DNA of 44,087 nucleotides, taken from assembly GCA_022844405.1 (NCBI GenBank), contig JALHLV010000033.1, positions 1 to 44,087 on the forward strand, in the 5' to 3' direction. Shown here one piece after another: positions 6,904 to 33,103 of this stretch. The notes under the pieces are model-generated. The model ran no database searches. It worked only from the letters and a program-made list of their open reading frames with translations, and was not told where the DNA came from. The position numbers and the translations under genes were made by a program. The stretch is from Sphingomonadales bacterium. Lineage in GTDB: Bacteria > Pseudomonadota > Alphaproteobacteria > SMXS01. How positions within the stretch are numbered: position 1 is the stretch's first letter; each line of letters opens with the position of its first letter.

Positions 6904-7045
6904 CGCCCTCATCCGGCCGCCCTGCGGGCGTCCACCTTCTCCCCGGGCGGGGAGAAGGAAGGTTGACGACGTCATCGATGGAAGCGTCCCCTCGCCCCAC
7001 CGGGGAGAGGGTCAGGGTGAGGGGGACGCGCCAGCGGCGCGCCTA
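6904..7045. repeat. Dispersed intergenic repeat (CCTCATCC...GGTGAGGGGGAC type)
   Basis: An imperfect inverted repeat fills the gap between convergent genes: CCTCATCC-GGCCGCC-...-CCTTCTCCCC on the left and GGGGAGAGGGTCAGGGTGAGGGGGAC on the right half. The same arrangement occurs at 15562-15694, and a half copy lies at about 43902-43929. It has no coding role and may act as a bidirectional terminator. Confidence 0.75.
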
Positions 7046-7049
7046 CCCG

Positions 7050-7592
7050 CTATTCCGGCATCAGCCGCCAGCCGCTTATGCCGGTGAGGAACGCGTCGCT
7101 GCGCAGTTCCACCGACTTGCAGATCGACTTGGCCGGGTCCTTGGGATCGTTCACCCGGGCGTATTTGAATTTGTCGATCGGGCACAGATTGCGCTGGAAG
7201 ACACCGACGAACTCCATGCGCTTGCGGTTGTAGGACTGCGCCAGCTTCATGAAGTCGGCGGGATAGTCCATGCCGATCATCACCCGGCCGCACGAGCCGA
7301 TGTCCCGGGGAAAAAGGTCGAAATACAGATTGTTGTTGCGCTGCTCGATCAACGCGATGCCCTGGACGCGGACCTGCTGGCCCTCGAACTTGTCCGGCGC
7401 GCACACCAGGTCGCTCAGCGACACCAGCGGCACGTTGGGAAACGGCGATTTGCCATCGTCGACGGCGGCGGGCGCGCGCGCATAGTCCGATTTCTCCATG
7501 GCCTTGAGGTCGTCCTTGACCGCCTTGCCCATGCAGCCCGACAGCAGCGCCGCGCCGGCGATCAGCGCCAGCAACCCCCGGCATTTCATCAT
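7050..7592 (-). CDS. Predicted lipoprotein of unknown function
   Basis: 180 aa. The N-terminus is a signal peptide with a lipobox LLSGC ending at C20, so it should be lipidated and anchored on the periplasmic side. The mature part contains a segment resembling a small beta-barrel (FEGQQVRVQGIALIEQRNN, about 78-96) and several cysteines. No family with known function is recognised. Its ATG overlaps the stop of the upstream NUDIX gene by 4 bp (ATGA), so the two are translationally coupled. Confidence 0.7.
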   Translation of the reverse strand: MMKCRGLLALIAGAALLSGCMGKAVKDDLKAMEKSDYARAPAAVDDGKSPFPNVPLVSLSDLVCAPDKFEGQQVRVQGIALIEQRNNNLYFDLFPRDIGSCGRVMIGMDYPADFMKLAQSYNRKRMEFVGVFQRNLCPIDKFKYARVNDPKDPAKSICKSVELRSDAFLTGISGWRLMPE

Positions 7593-8164
7593 CGCGGCCC
7601 GCCCCTCAGCCAGTAGAGGGCGATCAGCGTCTTCGAATCCTGGAACCGGCCTTGGTCGAGCCAGGCGAACGCCTCGTCATGGGTCAGTTCCACCAGCCTG
7701 ATGTCTTCGTCGCCGTCGCCCGGCGCCTCACCCGGATCGCCGTCCACGTCGACCAGATAGAGATGCATGCGCTCGTCGGTATAGCCGGGCGAAACGAAGA
7801 AGCTGGTGACCGGCGTCACGCCGACGGCCTCATAGCCGGTTTCCTCGCGCAGTTCCCGCACCATGGCCTCCTCGGCGCTCTCGCCGGGGTCGAGTTTGCC
7901 GGCGCAGATCTCCACGATCCAGCCGTCCGACTTGCCGTGGGCAGCCAGCCGGAACTGCTCGACGAAGATCAGCGTGCCGCGCGACCGGTGCCTGACCAGG
8001 CCCACGGCCGCGTCCTGCCGGCGCACGACGTCGCGGGTCACGGGCTTGCTCATGGCGCCGGAGAAGGTCTCGAAGCGGTAGGTGATCTCGTCGACCTTCA
8101 GCCAGCCGTCGGCGACGCGGCGGCAGCTTTCGACATCGACCTTGCTGGGGCGGATATTGGTCAT
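7589..8164 (-). CDS. NUDIX hydrolase, ADP-ribose pyrophosphatase-like
   Basis: 191 aa. A complete Nudix box is present at 89-111: G-x5-E-x7-R-E-L-R-E-E-T-G-Y, with the metal-binding glutamates E104, E107 and E108. Downstream, SPGYTDERMHLYLV resembles the region found in ADP-ribose/sugar-nucleotide pyrophosphatases. It would hydrolyse a nucleoside-diphosphate linked compound in the cytoplasm, with Mg or Mn. The start at 8164 has no clear ribosome binding site. It is the first gene of a pair with the lipoprotein at 7050-7592. Confidence 0.88.
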   Translation of the reverse strand: MTNIRPSKVDVESCRRVADGWLKVDEITYRFETFSGAMSKPVTRDVVRRQDAAVGLVRHRSRGTLIFVEQFRLAAHGKSDGWIVEICAGKLDPGESAEEAMVRELREETGYEAVGVTPVTSFFVSPGYTDERMHLYLVDVDGDPGEAPGDGDEDIRLVELTHDEAFAWLDQGRFQDSKTLIALYWLRGGPR

Positions 8165-8230
8165 GGGAAGGATTTAACACAGGTCCAACGCTGCACCACA
8201 CGCTAAACCCGAGAACCTGCTTCTACGTGA

Positions 8231-8416
8231 TCACGCCGTGGGCGGGGTCGGCTCCGAAGGGACCGCCCCCATGCTTTGTCCCACCCTCTTGATCGAGACC
8301 GCACCGTCAGGCAGCAATTGCATCTCCACCTGATCGCCGGGCCGAACACCGAGACGATCACGAACCTCCTTCGGGAGGGTCACCCGGCCTCGCGTCGTCA
8401 ATCTTGCGTGCGGCAC
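8231..8416 (-). CDS. Orphan AbrB/MazE-type (SpoVT-AbrB fold) DNA-binding protein
   Basis: 61 aa starting at GTG 8416 after GGGAGAAG. The swapped-hairpin signature is clear: ARLTTRGRVTLPKEVRDRLG followed by VRPGDQVEM. These proteins are usually the antitoxin and autorepressor of a toxin-antitoxin pair, or small global regulators. No PIN or MazF toxin gene lies on either side: downstream is the NUDIX operon and upstream the aldo/keto reductase gene. The C-terminal tail is short and proline-rich, with no obvious toxin-binding helix. Confidence 0.75.
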   Translation of the reverse strand: MPHARLTTRGRVTLPKEVRDRLGVRPGDQVEMQLLPDGAVSIKRVGQSMGAVPSEPTPPTA

Positions 8417-28349: not shown

Positions 28350-28377
28350 TTGACGGCTGCGGTTTACAGCTTATTGT
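28350..28377 (+). promoter_or_regulatory. Candidate promoter of the Rrf2 gene
   Basis: TTGACG at 28350-28355 and TATTGT at 28372-28377 with a 16-bp spacer. The shared motif at 28376-28394 overlaps its -10 end and start site, as expected for autorepression. Confidence 0.5.
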
Positions 28378-28394
28378 CTAGTGATCCTATCGGA
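28376..28394 (+). promoter_or_regulatory. Candidate Rrf2 operator, copy 1 (rrf2)
   Basis: GTCTAGTGATCCTATCGGA, ending 6 bp before the Rrf2 ATG. The core TCCTATCGGA is nearly palindromic (TCC-N4-GGA). It matches copy 2 at 15 of 19 and copy 3 at 16 of 19 positions. Confidence 0.6.
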
Positions 28395-28400
28395 AAATAA

Positions 28401-28850
28401 ATGCTCTCGCAAAAAGCCAAATATGCCCTGAAGGCGCTGCTCGTCCTGTCCGAGCGGCCGCCCGACATTCCCGTCCAGGTCGTCGAGCTGGCGGAAGAGG
28501 GCAATATCCCGCGCAAATTCCTCGAACTGATCATGCTGGAGCTGAAGAAGCACGGCGTCGTCCACAGCCAGCGCGGCAAGCATGGCGGCTATATGCTGGC
28601 CCAGCAGCCGTCGGAAATCAGCTTCGGCCAGATCGTCCGCGCCATGGACGGCCCGCTCGCGCCGATCCCCTGCGCCAGCCTCACCGGCTACCGCAAATGC
28701 GCCGACTGCGTCAACGAGGGCACCTGCGCGGTCCGCATCATGATGCGCCGAGTCCGCGACGCCGCAGCCCAGATTCTCGATGGCACCTATCTGTCCGACA
28801 TGTCCTCGAAGGACGTGGAAGCCCTTGCAGATCAGCTACTTATGGCCTGA
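28401..28850 (+). CDS. Rrf2 family transcriptional regulator with Fe-S type cysteines
   Basis: 149 aa. The winged helix-turn-helix runs from MLSQKAKYALKALLVLSE through IPRKFLELIMLELKKHGVV to SQRGKHGGYMLA. The C-terminal half has C91, C100, C103 and C109, a spacing close to the cluster loop of IscR-like regulators, so it may bind an Fe-S cluster or sense thiol state. It sits directly upstream of sulfate uptake genes in the same direction, and the same near-palindrome stands before it, sbp and cysT. It is probably a repressor of sulfate assimilation, in the manner of CymR, instead of CysB; this is inference from context. Confidence 0.9.
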   Translation: MLSQKAKYALKALLVLSERPPDIPVQVVELAEEGNIPRKFLELIMLELKKHGVVHSQRGKHGGYMLAQQPSEISFGQIVRAMDGPLAPIPCASLTGYRKCADCVNEGTCAVRIMMRRVRDAAAQILDGTYLSDMSSKDVEALADQLLMA

Positions 28851-28869
28851 GCATTTTTTTGTTGAAATA

Positions 28870-28888
28870 GTCTAGTATTTCTATAGGA
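28870..28888 (+). promoter_or_regulatory. Candidate Rrf2 operator, copy 2 (sbp)
   Basis: GTCTAGTATTTCTATAGGA, 32 bp before the sbp ATG, in an AT-rich stretch (a run of seven T precedes it). It shares GTCTAGT-N4-CTAT-N-GGA with copy 1. Confidence 0.55.
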
Positions 28889-28920
28889 GTTGTCTATCTG
28901 GTTTGTCAGGGAGTAGCCCA

Positions 28921-29931
28921 ATGAGTATCCGCGCAACCGCCTTGGCCTTGGCCGTGGCCATCGGAACCGCCACGTCCCCGGCGCTGGCCAAGGACGTCAC
29001 CCTGCTCAACGTGTCGTATGACCCGACCCGCGAGTTCTACAAGGACTACAACGCCTCGTTCGCGAAAGTCTGGAAGGCCCAGACCGGTGGCACGGTCACC
29101 GTCGATCAGTCCCATGGTGGCTCGGGCAAGCAGGCCCGCGCCGTGATCGATGGCCTTGCCGCCGACGTGGTGACGCTGGCGCTCGAAGGAGACATCGATG
29201 AGATCGCCAAGGGCACCCGGAAGATTCCGGCCAACTGGGTGCAGGCGCTGCCGAACCATTCCAGCCCCTACATCTCGACCATCGTTTTCTTGGTCCGCAA
29301 GGGCAACCCCAAGAAGATCAAGGACTGGGACGACCTGATCAAGCCCAGGATCCAGGTCATCACGTCGAACCCGAAGACCTCGGGCGGCGCCCGCTGGAAC
29401 CTGCTGGCTGCCTATGCCTACGGGCAGAAGAAGTACGGCAGCGAAGCTGCGGCGAGGGATTTCGTCACCAAGCTCTACCGCAACGTGCCCGTGCTGGACA
29501 CCGGCGCCCGCGGCTCGACGACCACCTTCGTCCAGCGCGGCATCGGCGACGTGCTGCTGGCCTGGGAGAACGAGGCGTTCCTCGCGATCGAGGAACTGGG
29601 TCCGGACAAGTTCGAGATCGTCACGCCCAGCCTCAGCATCCTCGCCGAGCCCAGCGTGGCGGTCGTAGAGGGCAACGCCAAGAGCCGCGGCACTACCGCG
29701 GTCGCCAGGGCGTATCTCGAAAATCTCTACACCCCGGCGAGCCAGAAGCTGATCGCCCAGCACTTTTATCGCCCCGCCAGGCCCGAAACCGTCGATCCGG
29801 CGATGCTGAAGCGATTCGGCAAGCTGGAACTCGTCAACATCCGCGACCACTTCGGCGGATGGGCCAAGGCGCAGTCCAAATTCTTCGGCGACGGCGGCCT
29901 CTTCGACCAGATCTACAAGCCCGGCCGCTGA
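28921..29931 (+). CDS. sbp: Sulfate/thiosulfate ABC transporter substrate-binding protein
   Basis: 336 aa from ATG 28921, after GGGAG; an in-frame TTG at 28903 is less likely. The signal peptide (about 1-23, ending ALA) sends it to the periplasm. Sulfate-binding landmarks are [23 protein letters not shown] and [12 protein letters not shown]. It captures sulfate and delivers it to CysT/CysW. A 377-bp gap separates it from cysT, with its own operator copy, so the permease genes have a second promoter. Confidence 0.95.
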
Positions 29932-30308
29932 CATGATCCGGGGCGGCGGCTGTGCGCTCCGCTTCGGGGAGAACGGGCAACGACCGGCGCCGGCAAGGGG
30001 CGGCCCAACCATGCCGGATGGGCCGTCTCGCTTTCTCCCCTGATCGAGGAACCGCGGTGGTTCCGATTCGTTCGGGGATGTGGCAGGCTGGGCACCGGAG
30101 GAAGCTTGGCCAGCGCTTCCGACCCGCGCATGGGGCCGCCCGCACCATGCCGCGCGTTCCAACCGTGGGAGACAGGACGGATGGAAAATTCGTGATGCCG
30201 CCGCATTCACTCTGGTAATCCTATCGGACTTATAGTTTAAATTCGCCACCCGGGTTACCACACGGGTTTTCGTCCGCCCGATCACGCAGTCAGGAAATTC
30301 TCAGGCCC
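29932..30308. other. 377-bp gap between sbp and cysT
   Basis: No supported gene. It holds a hairpin GGCGGCCCA (29999-30007) facing TGGGCCGTC (30019-30027), with a pyrimidine-rich tail, possibly the sbp terminator, and the third operator copy (30210-30228) followed by an AT-rich patch (TTATAGTTTAAATTC) that may be the cysT promoter. Confidence 0.6.
30210..30228 (+). promoter_or_regulatory. Candidate Rrf2 operator, copy 3 (cysT)
   Basis: CTCTGGTAATCCTATCGGA; its last ten bases TCCTATCGGA are identical to copy 1. It lies 80 bp before the cysT ATG, beside an AT-rich patch. Confidence 0.6.
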
Positions 30309-31151
30309 ATGGCGTCCGCCGGTTCAAGGGGTAAACGACGGGTCATCCCAGGCTTCGGGATATCGCTCGGTTTCACCATCGTTTATCTCGGGCTCATCGT
30401 GCTGATTCCGCTCGCCGGACTGGTGCTGAGAAGCGCCGGGCTGGGCTGGAGCGAGCTCTACCGCATCGCCACCGACCTGCGCACCGTCAACGCCATCTGG
30501 CTGAGCGTGTGGACCGCGTTCATCGCCGCCACCATCAACGTGCCGTTCGGCGTGCTGGTCGCCTGGGTGATGGTGCGCTACCGGTTCCCCGGCCGGCGCA
30601 TCCTCGACGCCGCCGTCGATCTGCCCTTCGCGCTGCCGACCGCGGTGGCCGGCATCGCCCTGACGGCGCTCTATGCGCCGAACGGCTGGGTCGGCGCCTA
30701 TCTGGAGGAGTGGGGCATCAAGGCCGCCTACACGCCGCTCGGCATCGTCATCGCCCTGACCTTCATCGGCCTGCCCTTCGTGGTCCGCACCGTCCAGCCG
30801 CTGATGGAGGACATCGACAAAGAGGTCGAGGAAGCCGCCGCGACGCTCGGCGCGGGCCGTTTCCAGACCGTCCGCCGGGTGATCCTGCCGGCGATCCTGC
30901 CCGCCGTGATCACCGGTTTCGCGCTCGCCTTCGCGCGGGCGATCGGCGAGTACGGCTCGGTCGTGTTCATCGCCGGCAACATCCCCTACGTGTCGGAGAT
31001 CGCCCCGCTGCTGATCATCATCCGGCTGGAAGAGTACAACTATGCCGGCGCCACCACGGTGGCGACGCTGATGCTGCTGATCTCGTTCACCCTGCTGATC
31101 GTGATCAACGCCATCCAGGCCATGACACGGCGGAGATACGGCAGTGGCTAG
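30309..31151 (+). CDS. cysT: Sulfate ABC transporter permease CysT
   Basis: 280 aa, six membrane helices. The cytoplasmic coupling loop is present: [20 protein letters not shown] followed by [23 protein letters not shown] and [15 protein letters not shown] are CysT/CysW hallmarks. It forms the channel heterodimer with CysW. cysW starts at GTG 31144, 8 bp inside its end. Start ATG 30309. Confidence 0.94.
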
Positions 31152-32016
31152 CCTGTTCAGCCGCGCCCCCATCGGCCAGCGCAGTGCCGTCAACGAGGGC
31201 GCGCTCACCCGCATCGCGCTGGTGCTGACCGCCGTCGTCTTCCTGGCACTGTTCCTGATCATGCCGCTGGTGCTGGTGTTCGTCGAGGCGTTCCGCCAGG
31301 GTGCCGGCGCCTATCTCGAGGCGCTGAAGGAACCGGACGCGCTGTCGGCCATGCGGCTGACCGTGACCGTCGCGATCATCGCCGTGCCGCTCAACGTGGT
31401 GTTCGGCCTGGCCGCGTCCTGGGCCATCGCCAAGTTCGAGTTCCGCGGCAAGAACCTGCTGATCTCGCTGATCGACCTGCCGTTCTCGATCTCGCCGGTA
31501 ATCTCCGGCCTGGTCTGGGTGCTGCTGTTCGGCTCCCATTCGGTGCTGAGCCCATGGCTCCAGGCCCACGACATCCAGATCCTGTTCGCGCTGCCCGGCC
31601 TGGTGCTCGCCACCATGTTCGTCACCTTCCCCTTCGTCGCCCGCGAACTGATTCCGCTGATGCAGGAACAGGGCACCACCGACGAGGAGGCCTCGCTGAG
31701 CCTGGGCGCCAGCGGCCTGCAGACCTTCTGGCACGTCACCCTGCCCAACGTCCGCTGGGCGCTGGTCTACGGCGTGCTGCTGTGCACCGCGCGCGCCATC
31801 GGCGAGTTCGGCGCGGTTTCGGTCGTGTCGGGTCACATAAGGGGCAAGACCAACACCCTGCCGCTCCATGTGGAGATTCTCTACAATGAATACAGTTTCG
31901 TCGGCGCCTTCGCGGTCGCTTCCGTCCTCGCCCTCCTTGCTCTCGTCACACTCGGAATCAAGGCTGTCCTCGAGTGGCGTTACGGCAACCAGCTCGCCTC
32001 AGGCCACCGGCACTAG
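31144..32016 (+). CDS. cysW: Sulfate ABC transporter permease CysW
   Basis: 290 aa starting at GTG 31144, overlapping cysT by 8 bp. Six helices, the coupling loop [38 protein letters not shown] and [16 protein letters not shown]. The latter motif and [13 protein letters not shown] are characteristic of CysW. It pairs with CysT and CysA, and cysA follows 10 bp downstream. Confidence 0.94.
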
Positions 32017-32026
32017 GAGCTCCAGC

Positions 32027-33103
32027 GTGCGTATTTCGATCAGGAACGTGACCAAGCAGTTCGACCGGTTCCCGGCGCTGGGCGGCGTGTCGCTGGAAAT
32101 CGGCTCGGGCGAGCTGGTGGCGCTGCTGGGTCCGTCGGGTTCGGGCAAGACCACGCTGCTGCGCTCCATCGCCGGCCTGGAGCACCCGTCGTCGGGACAG
32201 ATCCTGTTCGACGGCGAGGATGTGTCCAACCTGTCGGTGGGCCAGCGCCGGATCGGCTTCGCGTTCCAGTCCTATGCCCTGTTCCGCCACATGACGGTGC
32301 TGAGCAACGTGTCGTTCGGCCTGAAGGTGCGGCCGCGCAAGACCCGGCCCAGCCGCGCCGAAATCCGCGCCCGCGCGCTCGAACTGCTCGATCTGGTGCA
32401 GCTCGGCGGTCTCGAGGGCCGGTTCCCGTCGCAGCTCTCCGGGGGCCAGCGGCAGCGCGTGGCGCTGGCCCGCGCGCTGGCCATCGAGCCGCGCGTGCTG
32501 CTGCTCGACGAGCCGTTCGGCGCCCTCGACGCCAAGGTCCGCAAGGAGCTGCGCCGCTGGCTGCGCCAGCTTCACGACCGGTTGGGGCTGACCACCATCT
32601 TCGTCACCCACGATCAGGAGGAAGCGCTGGAGCTGGCCGACCGCGTCGTGGTGATGAACAAGGGCGAGATCGAGCAGGCCGGCACGCCGGTCGAGGTCTA
32701 TGACGATCCCGCGACCGCCTTCGTCAGCGAGTTCCTCGGCACCGTGAACACCTTCCAGACGACGCTGAACGACGGCATCGCCGAGGTGCTGGGCACCGAG
32801 TTCCCGGTCGCCGACGCCGATCCGGGCGAAGGCCCGCAGCGCCGCCACGGCCCGGCCATTGCCTATGTCCGCACCCACGAGATCGAGCTGCTGTCGCGCG
32901 AGCGCGCCGAGGGCATCCCCGCCATCGTCCGCGCCGTGTTCCCGTTCGGCGGCGCCATCCGCGTCGAGCTGGCCGTCGAGGGCTACGACATGCCGATCCA
33001 GGTCGAGGTGCCGCGCGCCTTCTTCGAGGCCGGCGAGGTCCAGGTCAATTCGGGCCTGTTCATCCGCGCCACCAACGCCCGCGTATTCCCGCAATACAAC
33101 TAG
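32027..33103 (+). CDS. cysA: Sulfate/thiosulfate import ATP-binding protein CysA
   Basis: 358 aa from GTG 32027, preceded by AGGAG at 6 bp. Walker [10 protein letters not shown] (about 35-43), signature LSGGQRQR, Walker [10 protein letters not shown] and the H-loop FVTHDQEEA are intact. The C-terminal third (about 235-358) is the TOBE-type regulatory domain ([14 protein letters not shown]). It powers the CysTW channel. Last gene of the sulfate locus. Confidence 0.95.

Follow-up and report, generated by a model that had tools for sequence, protein, structure and literature searches.

The window, a 44,087-nucleotide stretch from a Sphingomonadales bacterium, is one of the 41 contigs of a 3.78-Mb genome. 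It carries a gene for an Rrf2-type regulator followed, on the same strand, by the genes of a sulfate ABC transporter, with three candidate operators distributed among them. The features of the locus are as follows.

28350–28377, plus strand: candidate sigma-70-type promoter of rrf2, TTGACG-N16-TATTGT, from a consensus scan.
28377–28393: candidate operator 1, TCTAGTGATCCTATCGG, a dyad of 17 bp at the −10/start of rrf2 (scored 14.5 bits with a model from which the genus was withheld).
28401–28850, plus strand: rrf2, a 149-residue Rrf2 regulator with cysteines 91, 100, 103 and 109 (profile matches and predicted structure).
28871–28887: candidate operator 2, the dyad TCTAGTATTTCTATAGG, between rrf2 and sbp (13.6 bits).
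28921–29931, plus strand: sbp, sulfate ABC transporter substrate-binding protein (NCBIfam PRK10752, 454 bits against a cut-off of 288).
30220–30236: candidate operator 3, the dyad CCTATCGGACTTATAGT, before cysT (15.8 bits, the best match in the window).
30309–31151, plus strand: cysT, sulfate permease (TIGR02139, 403 bits against 246).
31144–32016, plus strand: cysW, sulfate permease (TIGR02140, 400 bits against 329).
32027–33103, plus strand: cysA, sulfate ABC transporter ATPase (TIGR00968, 373 bits against 343).

For rrf2, sbp, cysT, cysW and cysA alike, the product passes the curated cut-off of one or more models bearing its name or function; CysA falls under the cut-off of the narrower CysA model PRK10851 (402 versus 502 bits). 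The gap between sbp and cysT is only 377 bp here (29932–30308), and is 1.5–2 kb longer in congeners. That of congener G002 contains a Porin_O_P gene (L021, about 7000–8250, minus strand), and two distant loci that were tested likewise have porins of this type between rrf2 and sbp.

A preliminary description of this DNA had reported a 19-bp repeat at 28376–28394, 28870–28888 and 30210–30228. Read off the window sequence, all three copies stand at these positions, with copies 2 and 3 identical to copy 1 at 15 and 16 of 19 positions, respectively. The core assigned to them, TCCTATCGGA, matches only copies 1 and 3 exactly, and copy 2 reads TTCTATAGGA; with one mismatch permitted, TCCTATCGGA has no further match in the window, and a search for the 10-mer core ran at chance level there (2 seen, 1.85 expected). 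Copy 1 does overlap the rrf2 promoter, as had been proposed, starting on the last two bases of the match at 28350–28377, which is kept by eye in the aligned upstream regions of congeners G001, G003 and G004. The three repeats are real, and they look like operators.

We compared the locus with 80 named loci of relatives, the best 80 of at least 595 stretches, in which genes were called with a composition-weighted gene caller. Sulfate-transporter genes lie downstream of rrf2, on the same strand and within 6 kb, in at least 39 of these best 80 loci (hereafter linked), a lower bound because contig ends cut off some of the other 41. Of 289 genomes drawn from the class, 35, the window's own included, have an Rrf2 match at E 1e-30 or better. 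The tree of the rrf2 proteins, built on 149 columns, has poor resolution; linkage needs 14 changes on it versus 27.3 for shuffled labels; it is therefore clustered, yet has changed several times. One linked locus, L039 (CALQFM020000078.1), is titled Candidatus Kuenenia and has an rrf2 85% identical to that of the window; it probably comes from a bin that is contaminated or carries the wrong label.

Next, we trained a palindromic 17-bp model on 40 stretches of 70 bp each upstream of rrf2, with no member of the genus among them. The set comprised 38 linked loci (L039 being left out) together with L041, whose contig ends directly past rrf2, and L055, where cysTWA lies upstream of rrf2. The model reached a log-likelihood of 177.8 versus 34–50 for four shuffled sets, which were given fewer starts and rounds. 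Its consensus is roughly YCKAT.NANYYKATAGA, with TCTATC-N5-GATAGA as the clearest form, and the family can be summarised as TCTATY-N5-RATAGA-like. Credible sites in the training set begin about 17–46 bp upstream of the start codon.

Applied to the window, this model placed its top three matches at 30220, 28377 and 28871, the three candidate operators. The reading of the repeat as a TCC-N4-GGA palindrome was not borne out, and we rejected it, since the axis recovered from outside the genus is that of the different, 17-bp dyad. The description of sites before rrf2, sbp and cysT stands for all three regions, but the cysT site itself is 30220–30236, 10 bp to the right of the copy first described, whose register (30211) scores 8.8 versus 15.8 at 30220 by the model trained without the genus. 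Matches of at least 13.5 averaged 0.2 per window, with a maximum of 2, in 60 Markov-resampled windows, where a single match can equal the window sites (maximum 16.9; the best match averaged 11.5). Resampling the 150-bp upstream regions 2000 times reached the observed score in 0.1%, 0.6% and 0% of cases. A threshold of 11.5 bits defines a site in the genus and linkage counts below.

The motif was found conserved before the rrf2, sbp and cysT orthologues of the genus, where its loss would have spoken against the proposed regulon. In the window genome (G000) and four congeners with rrf2 (G001–G004), the best site lies at the equivalent position in all 15 regions (5 genomes by 3 genes) and reaches 11.5 bits in 12, operators 2 and 3 keeping their place in 5/5 genomes and operator 1 being conserved throughout, if weak in G002 (8.6 bits). 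The other two sites under the threshold precede sbp in G003 (11.0 bits) and cysT in G004 (10.8 bits). An apparent loss of the cysT copy in G001 was rejected, as the dyad register gives 16.3 bits there. In these five genomes, rrf2 is accompanied by a close CysT (86–100% identity). In the family members G005–G009, no rrf2 match was found at E 1e-20 and permeases reached at best 34–37% identity, with G006 being 84% complete.

Beyond the genus, a 13-site genus matrix gave a mean best score upstream of rrf2 of 6.35 in the 39 linked loci (1.35 shuffled) and of 0.69 in the 41 others (0.68 shuffled); L039, among the linked, shares the site of G003, whose sites are in the matrix. Sphingomonas-type and Hymenobacteraceae relatives among the best 80 are unlinked and have low scores. 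With the dyad model, sites occur before rrf2 in 26/38 linked versus 1/39 unlinked loci, but the linked loci there are the training set. Out of sample, in the region after the rrf2 stop (−20 to +220 of the rrf2 end), which the model had not seen, the pattern recurs, with a site in 23/38 linked versus 2/39 unlinked loci (Fisher p about 1e-7, L041 and L055 left out); the position of operator 2 is thus enriched in linked loci. The rrf2 coding sequence, as a control, has none in either class (0/38 and 0/39). A genomic control at −700 to −460 has 0/37 linked and 4/39 unlinked, so that isolated matches do arise by chance; unlinked loci hold 29 matches of at least 11.5 bits in 433 kb. For five linked Azospirillum loci, the dyad model found no credible site before rrf2; in one of the Azospirillum loci, L111, a site of 12 bits lies some 80 bp upstream of sbp. 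These computations directly show the dyads to be present and conserved, and to go with this Rrf2 clade and with sulfate genes.

Within the window genome, a degenerate genus pattern, partly built from the window sites, has four matches, three of them at this locus, and its reversed control has two. The fourth match, at C12:116088 with one mismatch, was rejected as a site because its surroundings read, by eye, as a TonB-receptor coding region. The genome has two CysD genes above the cut-off, on contigs C21 and C19 (L144, L145). No site of at least 11.5 bits was found within 13–18 kb around these, CysH, a NirA/sulfite-reductase-like gene or NirB, the highest score near assimilation genes, 11.2, lying some 5 kb from cysH. 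On that ground, we rejected a wider assimilation regulon for this genome. It had been suggested that sulfate import here is not governed by CysB alone, which can now be put more strongly: a CysB orthologue was not found in the genome, where E. coli CysB retrieved seven LysR-like matches, the best at 27% identity (E 7e-14).

The Rrf2 protein of 28401–28850 very probably acts locally, through the three dyads, to repress sulfate import and its own gene. Site conservation and the tie to sulfate-linked loci, both read from sequence, support the original proposal of Rrf2-controlled sulfate import; that this protein is the binder of the dyads, that it represses and that sulfur status is its signal, we infer. 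An Rrf2 dimer would bind the dyads at 28377–28393, 28871–28887 and 30220–30236. When sulfur is sufficient, bound Rrf2 would keep RNA polymerase off rrf2, sbp and cysTWA, and in shortage it would release the operators, with the signal perhaps arriving via a metal or Fe-S centre on the four conserved cysteines. Operator 1 abuts the TTGACG-N16-TATTGT match and would therefore cover the transcription start, so that the dimer would shut off the gene that encodes it. Within the cysT dyad stands TATAGT, which could be a −10. For sbp, the consensus scan returned no plus-strand promoter-like match. The operator–promoter layout at rrf2, and less so that at cysT, points to repression.

The same layout bears on whether Rrf2 might instead activate sbp and cysTWA, or do both. 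Its sites start about 50 bp (sbp) and 89 bp (cysT) before the start codons, which would suit an activator, and at sbp there is no promoter-like match to fix the relative place of the site; with the rrf2 dyad at the −10/start, however, and the possible −10 inside the cysT dyad, we consider activation unlikely.

Another regulator could also bind the dyads, above all a second Rrf2 protein of the same genome acting with CysK as CymR does in B. subtilis, with the local rrf2 merely one of its targets. This paralogue (L002:1492–2970, contig C5 of G000) has 150 residues, is without the four-cysteine region and is encoded directly upstream of cysK, the cysteine synthase scoring above its cut-off. The two may form a CymR/CysK-like pair, and CymR does work with CysK according to the excerpt of PMC9338935. 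Near the paralogue, however, there is no site (best 3.7 bits in 3.2 kb), the dyad marks loci in which a four-cysteine rrf2 stands beside sulfate genes, and rrf2 and cysT are jointly present or absent across the family, all of which makes control by the paralogue improbable. That the repeats are functionless chance or remnant similarity, as the chance-level frequency of the 10-mer core and the equally high single matches in resampled windows might suggest, is scarcely credible in view of the independent model, the genus conservation, the out-of-sample enrichment and the resampling.

The local repressor itself is a member of the Rrf2 superfamily (PF02082, 127.6 bits versus 30; TIGR00738, 116.8 versus 73.3). 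It scores under the equivalog cut-offs of CymR (NF047409, 75.9 versus 195 bits), IscR (TIGR02010, 64.8 versus 207.55), RirA (39.1 of 193), NsrR (44.2 of 182) and the SUF regulator (55.6 of 110.65). Its predicted structure (mean pLDDT 92.7) is closest in fold to CymR, then to RsrR, IscR and NsrR. The usual IscR-type spacing involves three cysteines; here, four are arranged as C-x8-C-x2-C-x5-C. They occur in all of the best 80 loci, in unlinked relatives just as in linked ones, so that their presence does not follow the sulfate role. Their conservation suggests that the protein may sense Fe-S clusters or hold a metal or Fe-S centre. The cluster-binding regulators IscR, RirA, NsrR and RsrR share the fold and have cysteines in the same region, but are tied to isc, iron or NO genes, whereas this rrf2 is tied to sulfate import. 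CymR, the cysteine-metabolism repressor of Bacillus and Staphylococcus, is the nearest solved structure by sequence and fold, and a role in sulfur supply, here a probable one, would be common to both. In the excerpt of PMC9338935, however, CymR holds no cluster and acts with CysK, in contrast to the four cysteines here and to an rrf2 that is not beside cysK.

Related suggestions are already known. Cthe_2524 of Clostridium thermocellum, an Rrf2 gene near the sulfate transporter Cthe_2531–2535, has been suggested as its negative regulator; this is a Firmicute, and in the excerpted text the suggestion draws on transcriptomes and on a motif said to resemble that of IscR (PMC3848806). The Rhodococcus protein IGTS8_peg394 (CymR/Rrf2) has likewise been proposed as a sulfur regulator, but is actinobacterial, CymR-annotated and proposed from proteomics, the excerpt giving no operator (PMC8557817). 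Among titles and abstract openings of the open-licence literature, no description was found of this operator, or of an Rrf2 protein with four cysteines that represses sulfate import in Alphaproteobacteria.

The repressor proposed here names a likely controller of sulfate uptake for bacteria in which CysB was not found, and its explicit 17-bp operator can be scanned in other genomes. It would also connect part of a large uncharacterised Rrf2 clade with a nutrient. Members of this unnamed four-cysteine clade come from Alphaproteobacteria and from records labelled Binatota and other phyla. More tentatively, the clade might be a sulfur-starvation repressor that reads Fe-S cluster status directly, as a stand-in for CysB. 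With sulfur plentiful, a cluster-loaded dimer would sit on the TCTATY-N5-RATAGA operators and shut sulfate import; with sulfur, and hence clusters, scarce, the dimer would let go. Should the cysteines indeed hold a cluster, the cell would gauge its sulfur supply by a product that is itself made from sulfur.

Scans of further genomes extended the list of candidate sites. The pattern TCKAYYNANNNRRTMGA, searched in 8 genomes, proved of little use, its matches being mostly of the form TCGA...TCGA. When 20 genomes were searched with the stricter TCTAYYNANNNRRTAGA, 11 had matches, for a total of 27 strand-hits versus 4 with the reversed control; the 27 reduce to 17 distinct sites. Six of the 17 fall in known rrf2 loci (L156, L178, L180, L181, L182 and L189, the last in the training set), and one (L176) precedes a detached sbp. 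This sbp belongs to Rhodospirillaceae R-7, whose rrf2 locus, L046, includes cysTWA but lacks an sbp within the stretch examined; the contigs of the two differ in length (858 kb and 708 kb). Six others look unrelated: L185 at a LysR gene, L183 near an Abi gene, L186 inside a predicted gene, L187 before MgtC, and L177 and L188. The last two (1501–1517 in the genome of L048) are similar hairpin-like repeats with common flanks that mimic the dyad, and are probably a repeat element. Two sites in the Binataceae genome of L080 lie at TauD genes (L175 and L184, 1501–1517 each), about 70 bp before one TauD-family ORF and about 300 bp from the start of the second. These dyads hint that organosulfur scavenging belongs to the regulon there, and a cluster-reading repressor would perhaps shut such TauD-type genes too. 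On the contig that carries L105, the L179 site precedes a PBP-like gene. Finally, in Dongia mobilis (the genome of L062), a perfect dyad at L171:1501–1517 stands 34 bp before a 194-residue ORF without a Pfam match, which by eye looks rhodanese-like.
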